From contig JAKQAH010000002.1 of NCBI GenBank assembly GCA_029568545.1, positions 1 to 32,129 on the forward strand: a DNA stretch of 32,129 bases, given 5' to 3'. The notes under the pieces are model-generated. The model made no database searches. It had not been told where the DNA came from and saw nothing but the letters and a program-made list of their open reading frames with translations. This document shows, one piece after another, positions 3,169 to 12,511 of the stretch (positions are counted from its first letter, which is position 1; the number at the start of each line of letters is the position of its first letter). Both the position numbers and the translations under genes were made by a program. Origin of the DNA: Candidatus Omnitrophota bacterium (lineage in GTDB: Bacteria; Omnitrophota; Gorgyraeia; Zapsychrales; Zapsychraceae).

Positions 3169-3843
3169 TCATTTATCCTGCAACAATTCCGGATGATGCT
3201 TGACGACTCTTGCTTCGATCATATAAATGACATCTTCCGCGATGTTTGTCGCATGGTCGCAAATCCGCTCCAAATGGCGGGCCACCAGCAAAAGCGGGAG
3301 CGCGCGGGGCGCAGTGGTAGGGTCTTTCATCATATAATCTTCCAGCAGTTCTTTTTGAACAAAATTCCTCAGCTTGTCCGCTTCGTTGTCGAGCAGAATG
3401 ACCCTCTTGGCCATTTCGGCATCTTTCCGAACAAAAGCGTCCAGAGCTTCTTTGGTCATCCGCTGGGCCAATTGGGCCAATTTTGGGATATCAACGAGAG
3501 GTTTCAGCAGCGGCTTGCCGGTCAATTCCAGAACGCGTTGGGCGATATCCACGCCCAGATCCGCTATGCGCTCCAAGTCCGTCGTGATCTCCAAGACCAT
3601 CGTAATGAACCGCAGGTCCGCGGCCATCGGCTGGTATAATGCCAGCAGGTCAACGCACATTTCGTCAATGGCATTCTCCATTTGATCCACCATCTTATCG
3701 TGCGCAATGACTTTCCGAGCCCGCTCTTCACTGAGCTGTTTTAAGGATTCGACCGATTCAGCGATCGAATTCTCCACTAAAGCCCCCATTTTTAATATCT
3801 CGCTTTTTAAAGCGTCCAATTCCTGGTCAAAATGTTTTTCCAT
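3169..3843 (-). CDS. phoU: Phosphate signaling complex protein PhoU
   Basis: MEKHFDQELDALKSEILKMGALVENSIAESVESL... with PhoU repeats (LLALYQPMAADLRFITMVLEITTDLERIADLGVDIAQR; ARHLERICDHATNIAEDVIYM). Internal start at 3843 chosen over the listed 3879. Confidence 0.93.
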   Translation of the reverse strand: MEKHFDQELDALKSEILKMGALVENSIAESVESLKQLSEERARKVIAHDKMVDQMENAIDEMCVDLLALYQPMAADLRFITMVLEITTDLERIADLGVDIAQRVLELTGKPLLKPLVDIPKLAQLAQRMTKEALDAFVRKDAEMAKRVILLDNEADKLRNFVQKELLEDYMMKDPTTAPRALPLLLVARHLERICDHATNIAEDVIYMIEARVVKHHPELLQDK

Positions 3844-4261
3844 GTGAGCCCTTTCCCTGCGCTGGTGTTCTGATGTCATCCATAAGCTTCAAAAGATTTA
3901 ACGTGATCTCATCGCGGACTTTCCGGAAGAACGCCATATCCCGTCCCTTGGGATCCCTGATAATCCAGTCGACGCGGTGCCTGGCTTCAACGAATGGGCA
4001 TTGTTCGCCGCAGCCCAACGTGACCACATAGTCGAATTTCTCAAAGGGCAACTCCTCAAATCCTTTTGGCTTTTGCCGCGAAATATCAATATTCTTTTCC
4101 TGCATCACTTTAACGGCCTTGGGATTGATGATACTGGCCGGTTTTGAGCCGGCACTATAAGGCTCAACGATATCCTTCCCCAAGACGCGCGCCAGGCCTT
4201 CGGCCATTTGACTGCGGCAGCTGTTCTGAACGCATACAAAAAGCAATGTCTTCTTTTTCAT
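3827..4261 (-). CDS. arsC: Arsenate reductase, LMW-phosphatase/thioredoxin-linked type
   Basis: N-terminal P-loop CVQNSCRSQMAEG (CX5R) and second redox cysteine pair LGCGEQCPF; DPKG motif near C-terminus. Confidence 0.88.
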   Translation of the reverse strand: MKKKTLLFVCVQNSCRSQMAEGLARVLGKDIVEPYSAGSKPASIINPKAVKVMQEKNIDISRQKPKGFEELPFEKFDYVVTLGCGEQCPFVEARHRVDWIIRDPKGRDMAFFRKVRDEITLNLLKLMDDIRTPAQGKGSHGKTF

Positions 4262-5139
4262 TAACCGAACCTCCCGGTAATATATTCTTCCGTGATCTTT
4301 TTCGTCGGCTTGGTAAAAATATCCTTTGTTACCCCAAATTCCACCATCTCCCCCTGCATTAAAAACGCGGTTTTATCTGAAATACGGGCCGCTTGCTGCA
4401 TATTGTGGGTTACAATCACTATGGTATATTTTTCCTTGAGCCGAACAATAAGTTCCTCTAATTTTGCCGTCGCAATGGGATCCAATGCCGATGCGGGCTC
4501 ATCCATCAAAACGATCTCCGGCTGGATGGCTAAGGCCCGCGCCACGCACAACCGCTGCTGCTGCCCGCCGGAAAGCGATAATCCGCTATCCGTTAGCCGG
4601 TCTTTGACCTCCTCCCAAAGCGCCGAATCCCGCAGGCTCTGTTCGACTCTTTGAATAATTTCGCTTTTCTGTCTGATCCCATTGATGCGCAACCCATAGG
4701 CAATATTATCAAAGATCGTCTTTGGAAACGGATTGGGCTTCTGGAAAACCATACCGACTTTTTTGCGTAACTCCACGACATCCACTCTCGGATCATAGAT
4801 ATCCTGGCCTTCGATAAGAATGTTTCCATCGGCCCGGGTTCCAGCAATCAGGTCATTCATCCGGTTAAAACAACGCAGGAGCGTCGACTTCCCGCAGCCC
4901 GAAGGCCCAATGATGCTGGTCACTTCGCGCGCTCGGACATTCAGCGAAACATCCTTGAGAACTTTGTTCGCGCCGTAACGAAAAGAAAACCGTTCCACTT
5001 GGATCTTCGTATCGCCGTTGCGCATATTTGCAGAATTTCCCGCATAAATATGATCGGTAATTTTTATGGAAGGTTTTGATTGTTCGGCGGCAACAAGCAT
5101 CTTTTTTTCCCTTTCCTGAAAATAAGGCTTCATGGTCAT
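4261..5139 (-). CDS. pstB: Phosphate ABC transporter ATP-binding protein PstB
   Basis: Walker [13 protein letters not shown], signature [15 protein letters not shown], Walker [13 protein letters not shown]. About 35 aa N-terminal extension; an alternative start MLVAAEQ at 5100 has a good RBS-like AGGAAAGGG upstream. Confidence 0.96.
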
Positions 5140-5141
5140 CC

Positions 5142-6029
5142 TTACCAGTTTTTTTGGTGTTTATGGCGCAAATAAATCGCGGCGCCATTCAAACATAATG
5201 TAATGATCAACAAAACGATGATCCCGGCCGCCGCACAAATCAAAAATCCTTTTTGAGGCCGTGATACCCAATTAAAAATTTGTATCGGCAGAACCGTAAA
5301 CGGATCAAGAAGCCCTTTGAGACTGAAGTTCACATACGGAAATGATGGTGAAACAGATACCGGTGGAGTCGGCAAGAATGGAATGTAGGTCAGCGCCCCT
5401 AAAGTCACCAGCGGCGCGGTCTCTCCGATCGCGCGGGACATCGCCAGAATAATGCCGGTCAGGATGTTCCCGAATGCAGCCGGCAAAACCTGACCACTGA
5501 TCGCTTGCCAGCGTGTTGCTCCGACGGCATAAGCAGCCTCGCGAATCGAGGATGGTACCGCCCGCAACGCTTCTCGAGTTGATAAAATAACGATCGGCAG
5601 AACCAATAAAGCCAAGGTGCAACTTCCGGCCAGAACGCTGCGGTCCATATGCAACGCGCGGACAAACAATCCTAATCCCAGGATCCCGTAAACCACCGAG
5701 GGCACACCCGCCAAATTCGCAATATTGATTTCAATAAAGTCCGTCCAGCGGTTTTTGGGAGCGTATTCTTCCAAATAAATGGCCGCGCCGATTCCCAGAG
5801 GGATCGTCAATGCCGCCGTCGTCAGCATAATCCATAGGGTGCCGACCCAAGCGGAAAGGATCCCTGCCTGCTCGGGCTTACTCGATGGATAACTCGTGAA
5901 AAAATCCCACGTCAAACGGGGGAATCCGTCACGCACCACATCGAGGACCAAGACGGCTAAGACGATTAATCCCAAAAGGACTGCGCCAATACCGATATAT
6001 TTAAATATTCGATCTAGAATTTTAATCAT
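5142..6029 (-). CDS. pstA: Phosphate ABC transporter permease PstA
   Basis: TM protein with permease motif [44 protein letters not shown]; adjacent to pstB and pstC. Confidence 0.95.
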
Positions 6030-6921
6030 AAACTTCCTGAAACCTCTTTCGCAGTTTAAAGCTCATCATATTCAGAAAAAAAGTCATCATAAAAAGCGTC
6101 ATCCCGCAGACAAAAATCGTCTTATATTCCAATGTTCCGTGCGGCGTATCGCCCAGACTGATCTGTACGATATAAGCTGAGATCGTTTCAATCGGCACTA
6201 ACGGATTCAATGTCAGATGCGGTTGTTGGCCGGCCGCGATCGCCACAATCATAGTTTCACCGATAGCGCGAGAAACGGCCAGAATGATAGCGGCCGAAAT
6301 GCCCGACAGCGCCGCCGGCAACACAATGTTAAAAGCCACCTGAATCTTTTGTGAGCCGACCGCATACGCGCCTTCGCGCAGACGCATTGGCACCGCATGC
6401 ATCGCATCCTCGCTCAACGAAGAAACCAAAGGAATGATCATGATGCCCATGACCAAACCCGCCGATAAGGAATTAAATCCCGAGATATCCGGAAAGATTT
6501 TCTTTAAGACCGGCGTGACAAATAACAACGCAAAATACCCGTAAACAACCGTGGGAACGGCGGCAAGGACCTCCAAGATCGGCTTAACGATCTTCCGGAC
6601 GCTGGCCGAGGCATATTCGCTTAAATACACCGCGCTGATCAGTCCGGTCGGCACCGCCACCATCAGCGCAATGACCGTTGTGAGCATGGTCCCGCACAGT
6701 AACGGCATGATTCCAAAATGCTTGATCGTAAAGAGCGGAGTCCACTGAGTGTCCGTCAGGAATTCCCAAAGGGAGACTTTTTGGAAAAATCCCCATGTTT
6801 CGGACATCAAAATATAAATGATCGCCATGGTCGTGAAAACGGACAAGAGGCTGCAGAACTGAAGCAGCCTCTCGACCATCATCTCTTTGACCCGAACGGC
6901 CGTGTTGCGTGTTTCGAACAT
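6022..6921 (-). CDS. pstC: Phosphate ABC transporter permease PstC
   Basis: [42 protein letters not shown]; overlaps pstA start by 8 nt. Confidence 0.95.
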
Positions 6922-7922
6922 TATTTCTCCATCATCAAAAGATCGGCCATTTTCACGCCCACCGTCTTGATCCCGCTGCCGAAAACCGTTCCCTTGATGC
7001 CCTGATTGAATCTTTGTACGGCGGCATCATACGATTCCGGCTGCAAGGGAATGTAGCCGACTTCCTCGACAAGAGAAGGCGCATTCTTCAGATAATAGTT
7101 GATGAACTCTTTGATCGCCGGGCGTTGCGTCGCCTTGGCGCTGACATACACAAAGATCGGGCGCGCCAAGGGTTGGTAGGTAGCATCCATGACCGTTTCC
7201 ATCGACGGTGCAATAGGCCCAGCGCCGTTGGACGGGTTTTCATCATCAATCGGAACCAACTTGAGTTTATCTTTGTTCTGTTCATAATAGGCCAAGCCGA
7301 AATATCCGATCGCCCCTTCATCCGAGGCAATCCCTTCGACCAAAACATTGTCATCTTCACTGGCCGTATAATCGCCGCGGCTGGCTGCTGATTTACCGTT
7401 AATGGCTTCGGTAAAATAATCAAAGGTCCCGGAATCCGTTCCCGGACCAAAGAGCACGATCGGCTTATCCGGGAATCCCGGACGAACCTGGCTCCAATTC
7501 ATGATGTTTCCTTGAGCCGACGGCTCCCAAATCCTATTAAGCTCCTTGACGGTCAAATGATCAACCCAGGTATTCTTGACATTGACCATAACGGCCAAGC
7601 CATCATACGCTACCGGCAACTCGATGTATGTAATACCGCTTTCCTTACAAAGCGTCCGCTCGCTATCCTTGATCGGGCGTGACGCATCACTGATATCGGT
7701 CTCTCCACGGCAAAAACGTTTAAACCCGCCTCCCGTACCGGAAATACCTACCATCACTTTAGCCTGGCCGCCCGAGTTCTTGAACTCCTCCGCCACAGCC
7801 TCGGTAATCGGAAAGACCGTACTGGAGCCGTCCACCTTAATAAGATCGGCATCGGCCGGCCCGATCAGAGCTGCGAGCAAAAACATCACTCCTATACTCC
7901 ACAATAAACTGATTTTTTTCAT
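6921..7922 (-). CDS. pstS: Phosphate ABC transporter substrate-binding protein PstS
   Basis: Signal peptide, then [21 protein letters not shown]...[26 protein letters not shown]...[16 protein letters not shown]. Confidence 0.95.
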
Positions 7923-7962: not shown

Positions 7963-9237
7963 CTAGAACTTGAAACTGATATCCGCCTGTAACAATTTCT
8001 GGCGGTTCTTGGTTCCTTTGATCACATCATCCTGGTAATAATCCAATCCCAATATGACATTCTTGGCGAGCCCATATTCTATGATCCATTCATGGCCACG
8101 GACATTCGTCGCCCCGCCCAGACGGTCAGAATCGGGAAAAGTATCCGGGAAAGCATCCCGGCCCAAATACGAATACTGATATTTCATCTGCCATTGATTC
8201 TGGCCGTTGACTTTAGCGTCTCCGAACTTAACGCCGGTCGCCCAGCCGTTCTCATCATCCTCAGGATCAAAATTATGGATGAAATCACTGAAAAAGGCCA
8301 AGCGTTCGATGTTAGCGCCCAAAGGCTTATTAATACCAAACTCTGCCGAGACTCCGGCTGAATCATAATCATAGATTAACGTCCCTGTGCAGGAACTGGA
8401 AGAGCCGGAAAGCCCGCTATTTGTGCAGGCGCGGTTATCAAGGAGAATATCCTCGATCCCATTAAACCCGTAATAGATCCCTGCCAAAGTCGCATCAAAG
8501 GCCTTATTCTTATCTTTCCATTTGGCTCCAACCTGGGTATAGGCCAAGAACGGATCCACACGATCCACTTTCCCGTTCTCATCCATAATCCATATACCCG
8601 TATTGTTAAAGAGGCTCCACTGATCGCCTAATTTTTTCTCAAGATGGACGGAGCTCCCGGCAGGATTGATATCTGAATCCCACAAAAGATCGGTTGGGCT
8701 CCACAGATAATCGCTCCGAAGAAATTTGCCTCCGACGATTTTTGCCCACGGAGCTGGCACATATTCCGCGAACGCATAATCCAGTCGGATACTGCCGCGG
8801 TCGAACATGTTTTGCAGCGTTTGATTGGTGGAACGGGGATCATCGGAATTCGACGAGCTGCTATTTGAGGAAGCCAGTCCGGCCCCAACTTTGACCATAT
8901 CATTAATTTTGGTCTCCAATCCCAGCCGGTAACGGATCCGGCCGCGGGTCTGAGCCTCTGCATCGTTTTTCTTTCGCTCGTATTGATAACGCAGCCGCAA
9001 ATCGCCTTTGAGTTTTGTTTTTTGAACCCATTCCGGCATGCTTTGCTTCAAACCTTCTTCCCTTAATAATTTCTCATCGGCCACAACCTCGGCCTTGATG
9101 GATCGGGCTTCTTCGCGGTCGAGAATGCCCTTTTCTACGAGTTTCTCAATCAAAGAATCTATTTGAGTTGTTGCTGCGAACGACGAAGATATCCCTAAAA
9201 AAATAAACATTATTCCCAACAGAATTGCTTTTTTCAT
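7963..9237 (-). CDS. Outer-membrane beta-barrel porin (putative porin family), probably phosphate-starvation induced
   Basis: Signal peptide (MKKAILLGIMFIFLGISSSFA), N-terminal helical segment, many alternating amphipathic strands, C-terminal ...LLQADISFKF ending in Phe as in OMPs. Immediately upstream of pstS with a 40-nt gap. Confidence 0.82.
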   Translation of the reverse strand: MKKAILLGIMFIFLGISSSFAATTQIDSLIEKLVEKGILDREEARSIKAEVVADEKLLREEGLKQSMPEWVQKTKLKGDLRLRYQYERKKNDAEAQTRGRIRYRLGLETKINDMVKVGAGLASSNSSSSNSDDPRSTNQTLQNMFDRGSIRLDYAFAEYVPAPWAKIVGGKFLRSDYLWSPTDLLWDSDINPAGSSVHLEKKLGDQWSLFNNTGIWIMDENGKVDRVDPFLAYTQVGAKWKDKNKAFDATLAGIYYGFNGIEDILLDNRACTNSGLSGSSSSCTGTLIYDYDSAGVSAEFGINKPLGANIERLAFFSDFIHNFDPEDDENGWATGVKFGDAKVNGQNQWQMKYQYSYLGRDAFPDTFPDSDRLGGATNVRGHEWIIEYGLAKNVILGLDYYQDDVIKGTKNRQKLLQADISFKF

Positions 9238-9319: not shown

Positions 9320-9369
9320 GGGTTTGTTTCTCCATCTCTTCCATTCATCGGCCTCTTTCTGACATTGTT

Positions 9370-9423
9370 AGTATAGAAAGGTCCTGTGAAGGACAAATTA
9401 ACGTTATGTGAATTTTGTGTGAA
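9370..9423 (-). promoter_or_regulatory. Pho box (four repeats) plus -10 for the porin-pst-arsC-phoU block
   Basis: Minus strand 9423->9385: TTCACA-CAAAA-TTCACA-TAACG-TTAATT-TGTCC-TTCACA (11-bp periodicity), then 9 nt, then TATACT at 9375-9370. Confidence 0.8.
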
Positions 9424-9442: not shown

Positions 9443-9835
9443 TTACAAAACATGGGCTGCCCTTGCCAGGATCCGGTTAACGCGAGCTACGAGCTCTTTG
9501 GGGCTAAACGGTTTCATAACATAATCGTCGGCCCCCATTTCGAACCCTTTGAGCCTGCTTTCGATTCCCACTTGGGCTGTCAGCATAATGATGGGAATAT
9601 CCTTGATATTCGGATTGGCACGAATACGCCGACAAACTTCCAGACCATCAATCTCTGGAAGCATTAAATCCAGAATGATCACATCCGGTTTCTTTTCTTC
9701 GGCCGAAAGCAATCCCTGCTCCCCGTCTAAAGCATAAATGGGGTCGTGCCCAGCCATCCGTATATGCAGAGCAACTAACGCCACAAGATTCTTCTCGTCG
9801 TCAATGATCAAAACTTTTTTCTTTTTATCAGGCAT
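9443..9835 (-). CDS. Receiver-domain-only (CheY-like) response regulator
   Basis: 130 aa: VLIIDDEKN, IILDLMLPEIDG (phospho-Asp), MLTA, VMKPFSPKEL; ends after the receiver with no output domain. Confidence 0.88.
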   Translation of the reverse strand: MPDKKKKVLIIDDEKNLVALVALHIRMAGHDPIYALDGEQGLLSAEEKKPDVIILDLMLPEIDGLEVCRRIRANPNIKDIPIIMLTAQVGIESRLKGFEMGADDYVMKPFSPKELVARVNRILARAAHVL

Positions 9836-9858: not shown

Positions 9859-9912
9859 AGCATACACCTGTGATGTGACAGGGAAATGAACGGACTGTGA
9901 ACTTCTGGTGAA
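9859..9912 (-). promoter_or_regulatory. Pho box (four repeats) plus -10 for the receiver-only regulator
   Basis: Minus strand 9912->9874: TTCACC-AGAAG-TTCACA-GTCCG-TTCATT-TCCCT-GTCACA (11-bp periodicity), then 9 nt, then TATGCT at 9864-9859. Same geometry as the porin box. Confidence 0.72.
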
Positions 9913-9933: not shown

Positions 9934-11697
9934 TTAGGCAATCGGGAGGGTAAAGCTAAACGTGGAGCCGCGGCCAAGCTGCGACCGAACAGAAACCTGG
10001 CCGCCGTGGGCCAGAACAATATGTTTTACAATCGAAAGGCCAAGCCCTGTTCCGCCGAGTTCGCGGGAGCGAGCTTTGTCGACCCGGTAAAACCTCTCGA
10101 AAAGACGCGGCAGGTCTTCTTCCGGAATACCGATACCGGTATCCGTGACATCAACACGAAGGAATCCCCCTTCTTCCTGGGCAGAAAGAGCAATGCGATT
10201 CCCTTGAGGCGTATATTTGACTGCATTCTCGATCAGATTCAGAAAAACTTGCGCGATCCGGTCTTCATCCGCTCTGACCTTTGGCATGGTCTCAACAATG
10301 TCATTGCGGATATTCAAAGATTTTTCATTGATCTGCCTTTGCAGCCCTTCCAGAATACCATCCGCCACTTCATGGATTGCGACCGGTTGAAAGTCCAGCT
10401 TGAGATTTCCGGACTCGACCTTCGATAGATCGAGGATATCCTGGATGAGCCGCGCGAGCCGCTCGGCATCCATGTGAATGATCTTCAAGAATTCCTCCGC
10501 ATGAGCTTTGTCGGCTAAGGCGCCGTCCAAGAGCGTCTCAGCGTATCCCTTGATGCTGGCCAACGGGGTCCGTAATTCATGAGAAACGTTCGCCACGAAT
10601 TCTTTGCGGACCCGCTCCATCTTCCGCAGCTCGGTAATATCATGGAAAACAACGACGATCCCCTCGAGAGAGGATGCCCGCAGGATCGGGGCCGCGTAGA
10701 CCAGAACGATCTTTTCCTCAGGCAGCAGAACGGAGATCTCCGCCGATTCAACGCCCTGAGGCTGCCGCAAAACCTGATCAATAATCTCCTGCACTTTGAT
10801 ATTCCTGATGACTTCAAGTGTATTTTTGCCGATCGGTTCCTCGGTCACATGGAAAATTTTCTTAAAAGGCCCATTCATTAAGAGAATGCGTCCTTCTCGG
10901 TTAATGACCAAGACCCCCTCAGACATGCTCAGCAACACCGCTTCTAATTGGGATTTTTCCTTGGCCACGTCCTCAATACGCATACGGACCTGCTCCGACA
11001 TGTAATTGATCGAATCCGCCAGAACGCCCAGAACATCCTTGTTTGGCAGAAAAATTCGCTGCGAGAAATCGCCCGACGCAATCTTCTGGGCAACCTTGGA
11101 CATCTCGATCAAAGGCCGGGAGAAATAAAGCGAGGCGACCCAGCTTAAAATCACGGCAATGACAAATGCGGATAATAGAGAAACAACCAGAACTTCGGAA
11201 AGATGCCTGGAAACCACGCTGATATGATCCAGCGGCATGGCGAGACGAATAAAGGCATCCTGGCCTTTGAGCTGAAAAGCGGATGCCATGTAAAGCATGT
11301 TCTTCTTGATCGTCGTACTGAAACGGCGGCTCTCCCCCAGGCCGGATTTCAACGCCTTCTGGAGCTCGGGCCGCTGAAGATGATTTTCAACGCTCTTAAG
11401 CTCCTCAGAAGACAGGTCGGAATCTCCCAGGATCGTTCCATCCACTCCTACGATTGTAGTCCGTAATCCCGAAGCCTCCCCCATCAGGTCTGCAACGGTA
11501 TCCCAATCCTCGGAAAGCCTATCTGCCTTTTCAACATAAATTTTACTTAAGAGCAGTTCCCGTTCGAGACTCTCGCGGATCTGGCGGTAAGCATCTTCCG
11601 TCAAGGTCCTGTGCAAATACGCGTAAATCCCCAAAAAAACAATGGCAAAAATGACACCGAAGATCAATGTTAAACGCTGATGAATTTTATATGCCAT
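9934..11697 (-). CDS. phoR: Phosphate-regulon sensor histidine kinase PhoR
   Basis: N-terminal TM, extracytoplasmic segment, second TM, HAMP, PAS, then H-box [25 protein letters not shown]-box [14 protein letters not shown]-boxes [11 protein letters not shown] and [13 protein letters not shown]. Adjacent to phoB. Confidence 0.9.
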
Positions 11698-11702
11698 TAT
11701 TC

Positions 11703-12395
11703 TTATGCCTCATCATCAATCTTATAACCGATTCCACGGACCGTTTCGATTTTATCTCCGATTTTGCCCAATTTCTGACGGAGCAGTTTCACATGCGTAT
11801 CAATAGTGCGGGTCGTGACCTCTGACGATAATCCCCACACATCCGTCAAGAGCTGCTCGCGGGATTGGACGCGCCCTTTGCGTTCGACAAGGATCGCTAA
11901 AAGGTTGAATTCCATCGGCGAAAGCTCGACTACCTTCTTGTGCACCGTGATTTTATGGCGCGGAAGATCGACCACAATATCGCCGGCGCTTAAGATCTCT
12001 TTCGCATTCCCTTCTTTCGGCTGGCCCCGGCGCAAGACCGCCTTAGCGCGCAGGACCAGTTCGCGCGGGCTAAAAGGTTTAACAATATAATCATCCGCGC
12101 CCAGCTCTAAACCGACGACCCGGTCCACTTCCTCCCCTCTGGCTGTCAGGATCATGACGGGGATCGCGGCGAACCGTCGGTCCTGCTTCAGCAGTCGGCA
12201 GGTCTCAAATCCGTCCATCTTGGGCAGCATGACGTCGAGAATGATCAAGTCGAACGAGTCCTTGTCCAAAATGTTCAAGGCTTCCTCGCCCGTAATGGTC
12301 GTTAGGCAAGAAAATCCCGCCTTCTCAAAATTGTATTTCACCAATTTTGAAATATGCGGGTCATCCTCGACGACCAGAACGCGCGCTTCAGGCAT
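11703..12395 (-). CDS. phoB: Phosphate-regulon response regulator PhoB (OmpR family)
   Basis: Receiver ([54 protein letters not shown]) plus winged-helix ([31 protein letters not shown]...[14 protein letters not shown]...TVRGIGYKI). Confidence 0.93.
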
Positions 12396-12429: not shown

Positions 12430-12458
12430 AGTATACTCTTTCCCAGACGATTTGTGAA
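12430..12458 (-). promoter_or_regulatory. Sigma70-type promoter for phoB (TTCACA-N17-TATACT)
   Basis: Minus strand -35 TTCACA (12458-12453), 17-nt spacer, -10 TATACT (12435-12430), 35 nt upstream of the phoB start codon. Confidence 0.6.
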
Positions 12459-12511
12459 GCAGCCAAAAGCAGAATTCACCAAAAATTCACATGAAGGTTT
12501 TGGCAACTCCT

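Follow-up and report, generated by a model that had tools for sequence, protein, structure and literature searches.

A predicted PhoB-activated promoter ahead of the porin-pst genes of an Omnitrophota bacterium

Introduction

PhoB of E. coli binds as head-to-tail dimers, the proximal one of which substitutes for the -35 element and contacts sigma70. In Bacillus, the PhoP box is written TT(A/C/T)ACA, with gaps of about 5 nt. Pho units are 11 nt long and vary by species with the contacts of the regulator; the Streptomyces PhoP unit, for instance, is GTTCACC, arranged as 11-nt direct repeats (PMC4415409). The cyanobacterial SphR box is CTTAACCT, built as 8+3 nt, and in E. coli the Pho boxes are some 10 bp ahead of the -10 element (PMC1906773). 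Our full-text literature search found no paper joining Omnitrophota with PhoB.

The DNA analyzed here, called the window, is a stretch of 32,129 nucleotides from a Candidatus Omnitrophota bacterium. It is contig 159 of its source assembly, which measures 1.4 Mb, is 78% complete and is the single assembly for this genome. The named genomes most closely related to it are Candidatus Omnitrophota MAGs.

Results

The array lies in the 205-nt gap between a stand-alone receiver gene and a porin gene. On the minus strand, from 9423 to 9370, it reads TTCACA-CAAAA-TTCACA-TAACG-TTAATT-TGTCC-TTCACA-GGACCTTTC-TATACT. The preliminary description had given four repeats in exact 11-bp phase followed by 9 nt and TATACT, which is correct to the base, and it had seen no good -35; none of the sigma70 type was found that pairs with TATACT. 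A Pho box has at least two direct repeats with an 11-bp period, placed about 10 bp before a -10 in the position of the -35. The porin array has four such units in exact phase, with N9 to TATACT and no -35. It stands upstream of phosphate-uptake genes in a genome that encodes a PhoB (scoring below its family cut-off) and a PhoR/PnpS kinase. The features of the locus are collected in Table 1.

Table 1. Positions of the Pho sites and genes of the locus within the window
Feature	Position	Strand	Basis or remark
Pho unit 1, TTCACA	9418..9423	-	sequence read
Pho unit 2, TTCACA	9407..9412	-	sequence read
Pho unit 3, weak form TTAATT	9396..9401	-	sequence read and alignment of relatives
Pho unit 4, TTCACA	9385..9390	-	sequence read
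9-nt gap, unit 4 to -10	9384-9376	-	
-10 element TATACT	9370..9375	-	starts exactly 9 nt past unit 4
Predicted second Pho promoter, TTCACC-N5-TTCACA-N5-TTCATT-N5-GTCACA-N9-TATGCT	9859..9912	-	conserved in G004
phoB promoter-like TTCACA-N17-TATACT	12430..12458	-	conserved in G004
Inverted two-unit site TTCACC-N5-TTCACA upstream of phoB	12475..12491	+	conserved in G004
phoB, OmpR/PhoB-type response regulator	11703..12395	-	top NCBIfam match TIGR02154 PhoB, 244 bits, below the 296 cut-off
phoR/pnpS sensor kinase (HAMP-PAS-HisKA-HATPase)	9934..11697	-	NF046044 PnpS, 454 bits, above the 400 cut-off
Stand-alone receiver domain, PhoB-like, without DNA-binding domain	9443..9835	-	
Porin (Porin_5)	7963..9237	-	
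pstS	6921..7922	-	TIGR02136, above cut-off
pstC	6022..6921	-	identified via homologous operons
pstA	5142..6029	-	identified via homologous operons
pstB	4261..5139	-	
arsC-like arsenate reductase (LMWPc fold), within the pst run	3827..4261	-	arsenate-reductase families are top matches, below cut-offs
phoU	3169..3879	-	

Two other readings of this upstream region were rejected. The hairpin GTCC-TTCACA-GGAC at 9394-9381 was considered as a terminator, but it has a stem of only 5 bp and is not kept in G004, a genome of the same genus. A structured leader was dropped as well: nothing in Rfam matched the window, and in relatives the array stands anywhere between 55 and 394 nt before the start codon.

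Written in the same register, the pstS promoter of E. coli K-12 (NC_000913.3) reads GTCATA-AAACT-GTCATA-TTCCT-TACATA-TAACT-GTCACC-TGTTTGTCC-TATTTT and shares with the porin array four 11-bp units, a weak third unit and an N9 gap to the -10. The same register and gap are found in the E. coli phoB promoter, TTCATA-N5-GTCATA-N9-CATAAT. These comparisons rest on direct reading of the sequences, as a TTCACA profile run on the E. coli promoter returns weak, shifted matches only. The Omnitrophota locus differs from E. coli in its unit, which is TTCACA rather than GTCATA, in the porin that precedes pstS in the run, and in an extra receiver with its own predicted Pho promoter.

The hexamer had been likened earlier to the Bacillus form rather than to the CTGTCAT form of E. 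coli. The likeness stands: TTCACA fits TT(A/C/T)ACA, and the three units found in the phylum (TTCACA, TTAACA and TTTACA) jointly spell that consensus. The contrast is probably one of register: most of the apparent difference between CTGTCAT and TTCACA comes from the differing registers in which they are written, and the layout equals that of E. coli pstS. Set against the Bacillus box, which was compared by its consensus only, the Omnitrophota arrays have a spacing of rigidly 11 and a -10 gap of rigidly 9, as in E. coli. With Streptomyces PhoP they have 11-nt units and the core TTCAC in common, but the Omnitrophota unit ends in A, an AT-rich spacer follows unit 1 and the -10 is fixed. The SphR box has the same 11-nt period and resembles the TTAACA type found with a VA-type PhoB helix, but is unlike the TTCACA type of the window.

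The genes on the minus strand run in the order moeA-like, phoB, phoR/pnpS, receiver, porin, pstS, pstC, pstA, pstB, arsC and phoU. Porin and pstS are 40 nt apart, the remaining downstream genes overlap or are separated by less than 10 nt, and no intrinsic-terminator-like sites were found in the gene gaps downstream of the array. The short gaps and lack of a terminator noted earlier are thus both confirmed, and for these reasons a single transcript from porin to phoU is plausible. Arsenate enters cells via phosphate transporters, which makes arsC and pst a sensible combination. In several genera an arsC-like reductase gene is part of the pst operon or adjoins it (in the window and at loci L121, L131, L140 and L115).

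Two side observations concern the proteins of this locus and its relatives. The window's pstS, pstC and pstA (5142-7922) are 29-38% identical to the genes in the same place in G004 (L115, 10062-12798), while phoB, phoR, pstB and phoU are 78-84% identical between the two; the window's pstSCA is about 70-79% identical to pstSCA of other families. This looks like an in-place replacement of transporter genes inside a kept operon. Separately, one family repeatedly has, close to phoBR, a protein that resembles PhoB weakly (26-31%; L136, L139, L143, L130) and is possibly an extra signaling part.

The porin array is not alone. A further array at 9912-9859, absent from the preliminary description, stands directly before the receiver gene and has the same layout. 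The sequence thus predicts at least two Pho promoters here, the receiver gene having its own. Upstream of phoB lie a promoter-like site and an inverted two-unit site (Table 1), the latter also missing from the preliminary description. The inverted site could repress.

Conservation was followed in 60 phoR/pst regions of relatives and in named loci, for which genes were called and upstream regions pooled. The upstream regions of 45 porin genes were searched, with no motif supplied, for any hexamer that recurs exactly at a spacing of 7 to 16. The commonest was TTCACA with a spacing of 11, which occurred in 12 of the 45, and its shifted frames took the next three places. Spacing 11 accounted for 47 exact repeats in these regions, against 2-5 at each other spacing, and upstream regions of unrelated genes had little of this signal. 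At spacing 11, arrays of four units with a score of 18/24 or more were present in 53% of porin, 26% of phoB and 10% of pst upstream regions and in 2% of others. At any other spacing they were found in 0% of upstream regions, and on the reverse strand in 0% of porin, phoB and pst regions. Among 60 genomes with a close PhoR, 36 gave profile matches (E<1e-3), as did 2 of the 32 without one. The test proposed at the outset, enrichment of the motif near pst genes in related genomes, therefore gives a strong signal at porin, pst and phoB and almost none elsewhere. This enrichment and the gene context support the Pho-box reading of the preliminary description, with binding predicted from sequence.

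Thirty-four porin arrays, selected without regard to the -10, align without gaps, and TAnnnT begins exactly 9 nt past unit 4 in all but one (33/34). Units 1 and 2 are almost invariant TTCACA, unit 4 has the consensus G/T-T-C-A-C/T-A, and unit 3 is weak throughout (G/T-C/T-C-A-T-N). Since unit 3 is weak throughout these arrays, the window's TTAATT is a conserved, position-specific feature and not a defect. The weak third unit is common to E. coli pstS, which suggests that grading the strength of binding from unit to unit is an ancient part of the design. In G004, the repeat arrays of the porin, receiver and phoB upstream regions are kept and the flanks are more diverged; the -10 is kept at receiver and phoB, and the porin has TACAGT where the window has TATACT.

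PhoB proteins of the relatives carry three types of recognition helix. At loci with TTRTxDTHxKRLR, the type found in the window, 104 of 130 units have C as base 3. For xDRAVDVHxRGLR, 25 of 31 units have A there, and for xTRTVDVHxRTLR 22 of 24 have T or A. Among loci with a detectable array, to which the comparison applies, C versus not-C at base 3 agrees with the helix type of the same-locus PhoB at every one (37/37); when the labels are permuted inside each taxonomic family, p=0.003, a value that is indicative, as the loci are related. Because base 3 follows the helix of the neighboring PhoB and matches cluster in genomes with PhoR, that PhoB is the likely reader of the array.

The sites might instead be operators of a different OmpR-family regulator, placed near pst genes by accident. 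Tandem direct-repeat operators of 10-11 bp are shared across that family, and the genomes here have many two-component kinases, with numerous first-look candidates in each. We nevertheless consider this very unlikely: a regulator of that kind is hard to reconcile with the tracking of base 3 by the same-locus phoB helix, which holds within families too, or with sites that cluster at porin, pst and phoB and are almost absent from genomes without a close PhoR.

A single-residue rule, in which a helix change from V to T gives C at base 3, was rejected, as E. coli has V in 'DVH' and yet reads GTCATA. Since E. coli joins a DVH helix with C, the helix-unit code cannot rest on a single residue. Three loci (L132, L138, L129) have two PhoB types side by side and boxes of mixed type, and are suited to a test of cross-regulation.

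Discussion

Sequence, conservation, layout, context and co-variation with PhoB together make it highly probable that the array at 9423-9370 (minus) is a PhoB-activated promoter. When phosphate is scarce, the adjacent PhoR/PnpS kinase would activate PhoB. By analogy with E. coli, two PhoB dimers would then line up head to tail across the four 11-bp units, and the promoter-proximal dimer would replace the -35 and recruit sigma70 RNA polymerase to TATACT. Transcription would start near 9363 and yield one transcript, porin-pstSCAB-arsC-phoU, while the twin promoter upstream would drive the stand-alone receiver gene.

PhoB could also act the other way, as a repressor or roadblock, with the box mainly repressing the porin-pst transcript. 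PhoB-type regulators are able to repress, and the phoB promoter of this locus has the inverted two-unit site, which could do so. Against this stand the fixed 9-nt gap to the -10, the lack of a -35 and a layout identical to that of the activated E. coli pstS promoter, and we give repression of the porin-pst transcript scarcely any credence. Activation remains the reading we prefer.

The four-unit array is far beyond chance. The 1.4-Mb assembly has a single TTCACA-N5-TTCACA pair; with at most one mismatch allowed there are five sites, three of them in the pho locus. With two mismatches, the 32-kb window holds 4 pairs against 2.3 expected, which is not significant, so significance requires the full array. 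When the whole assembly was searched with the profile, only the porin and receiver-gene promoters were returned. The training set of the R1 profile had included the window site, a circularity removed by a held-out matrix built from 32 other loci with the window and its genus excluded. This matrix scores the porin array at 47.4 bits and the receiver-gene array at 38.2 bits; the runner-up to these two in the window reaches -3.4, and 20 simulated windows reach 5.1 at most. A chance arrangement of AT-rich repeats can thus be set aside as negligibly probable, for although two-mismatch pairs by themselves are to be expected in a stretch of this size, the full matrix lies more than 40 bits above any simulated window, the array is conserved across tens of genera with footprint-like conservation inside the genus, and the hexamer search, the fixed -10 offset and the held-out matrix already refute it.

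The mechanism is ordinary; the interesting parts are the phylum-wide specificity series and the giant secreted proteins as an unexpected regulon member. We incline, by a modest degree, to the view that Omnitrophota are a natural PhoB specificity series, in which the helix types TTRTxDTHxKRLR, xDRAVDVHxRGLR and xTRTVDVHxRTLR read TTCACA, TTAACA and TTTACA in otherwise the same promoter geometry, and that the regulon captured one clade of giant secreted proteins, tying phosphate starvation to surface or predation machinery. The helix-unit series is the part of possible interest to specialists, as a unit sequence coupled to the recognition helix in related PhoBs is material on how OmpR/PhoB proteins choose DNA. 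Most Omnitrophota are without culture or genetics, and a Pho-box matrix lets the regulon be read from sequence; a TTCACA matrix does not cover the units of the other helix types.

Elsewhere in relatives, profile matches precede second porins and second pstS genes. They also precede the gene of a giant, secreted-looking protein in seven genomes from several genera. A role in adhesion or predation has been proposed for giant ORFs of Omnitrophota (PMC10066038). The frames found here reach about 3,000 aa, the family reaches tens of copies per genome, and the N-terminal domain of about 360 residues has no Pfam match. In G051, G068, G061, G042, G041 and G052, none of which was a seed source, the seed profile matches no copy in the genome better than the one with the box, and most other giant-protein paralogues examined are without a box. 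A degenerate scan of giant-protein promoters was dropped as evidence, since it has a high chance baseline and a likely unrelated locus scores 22/24. A phosphate link of the giant proteins would be new and is no more than a lead. The Pho boxes stand before one giant-protein clade, at L213, L214, L215, L216, L217, L221 and L222 (and L223 and L241).
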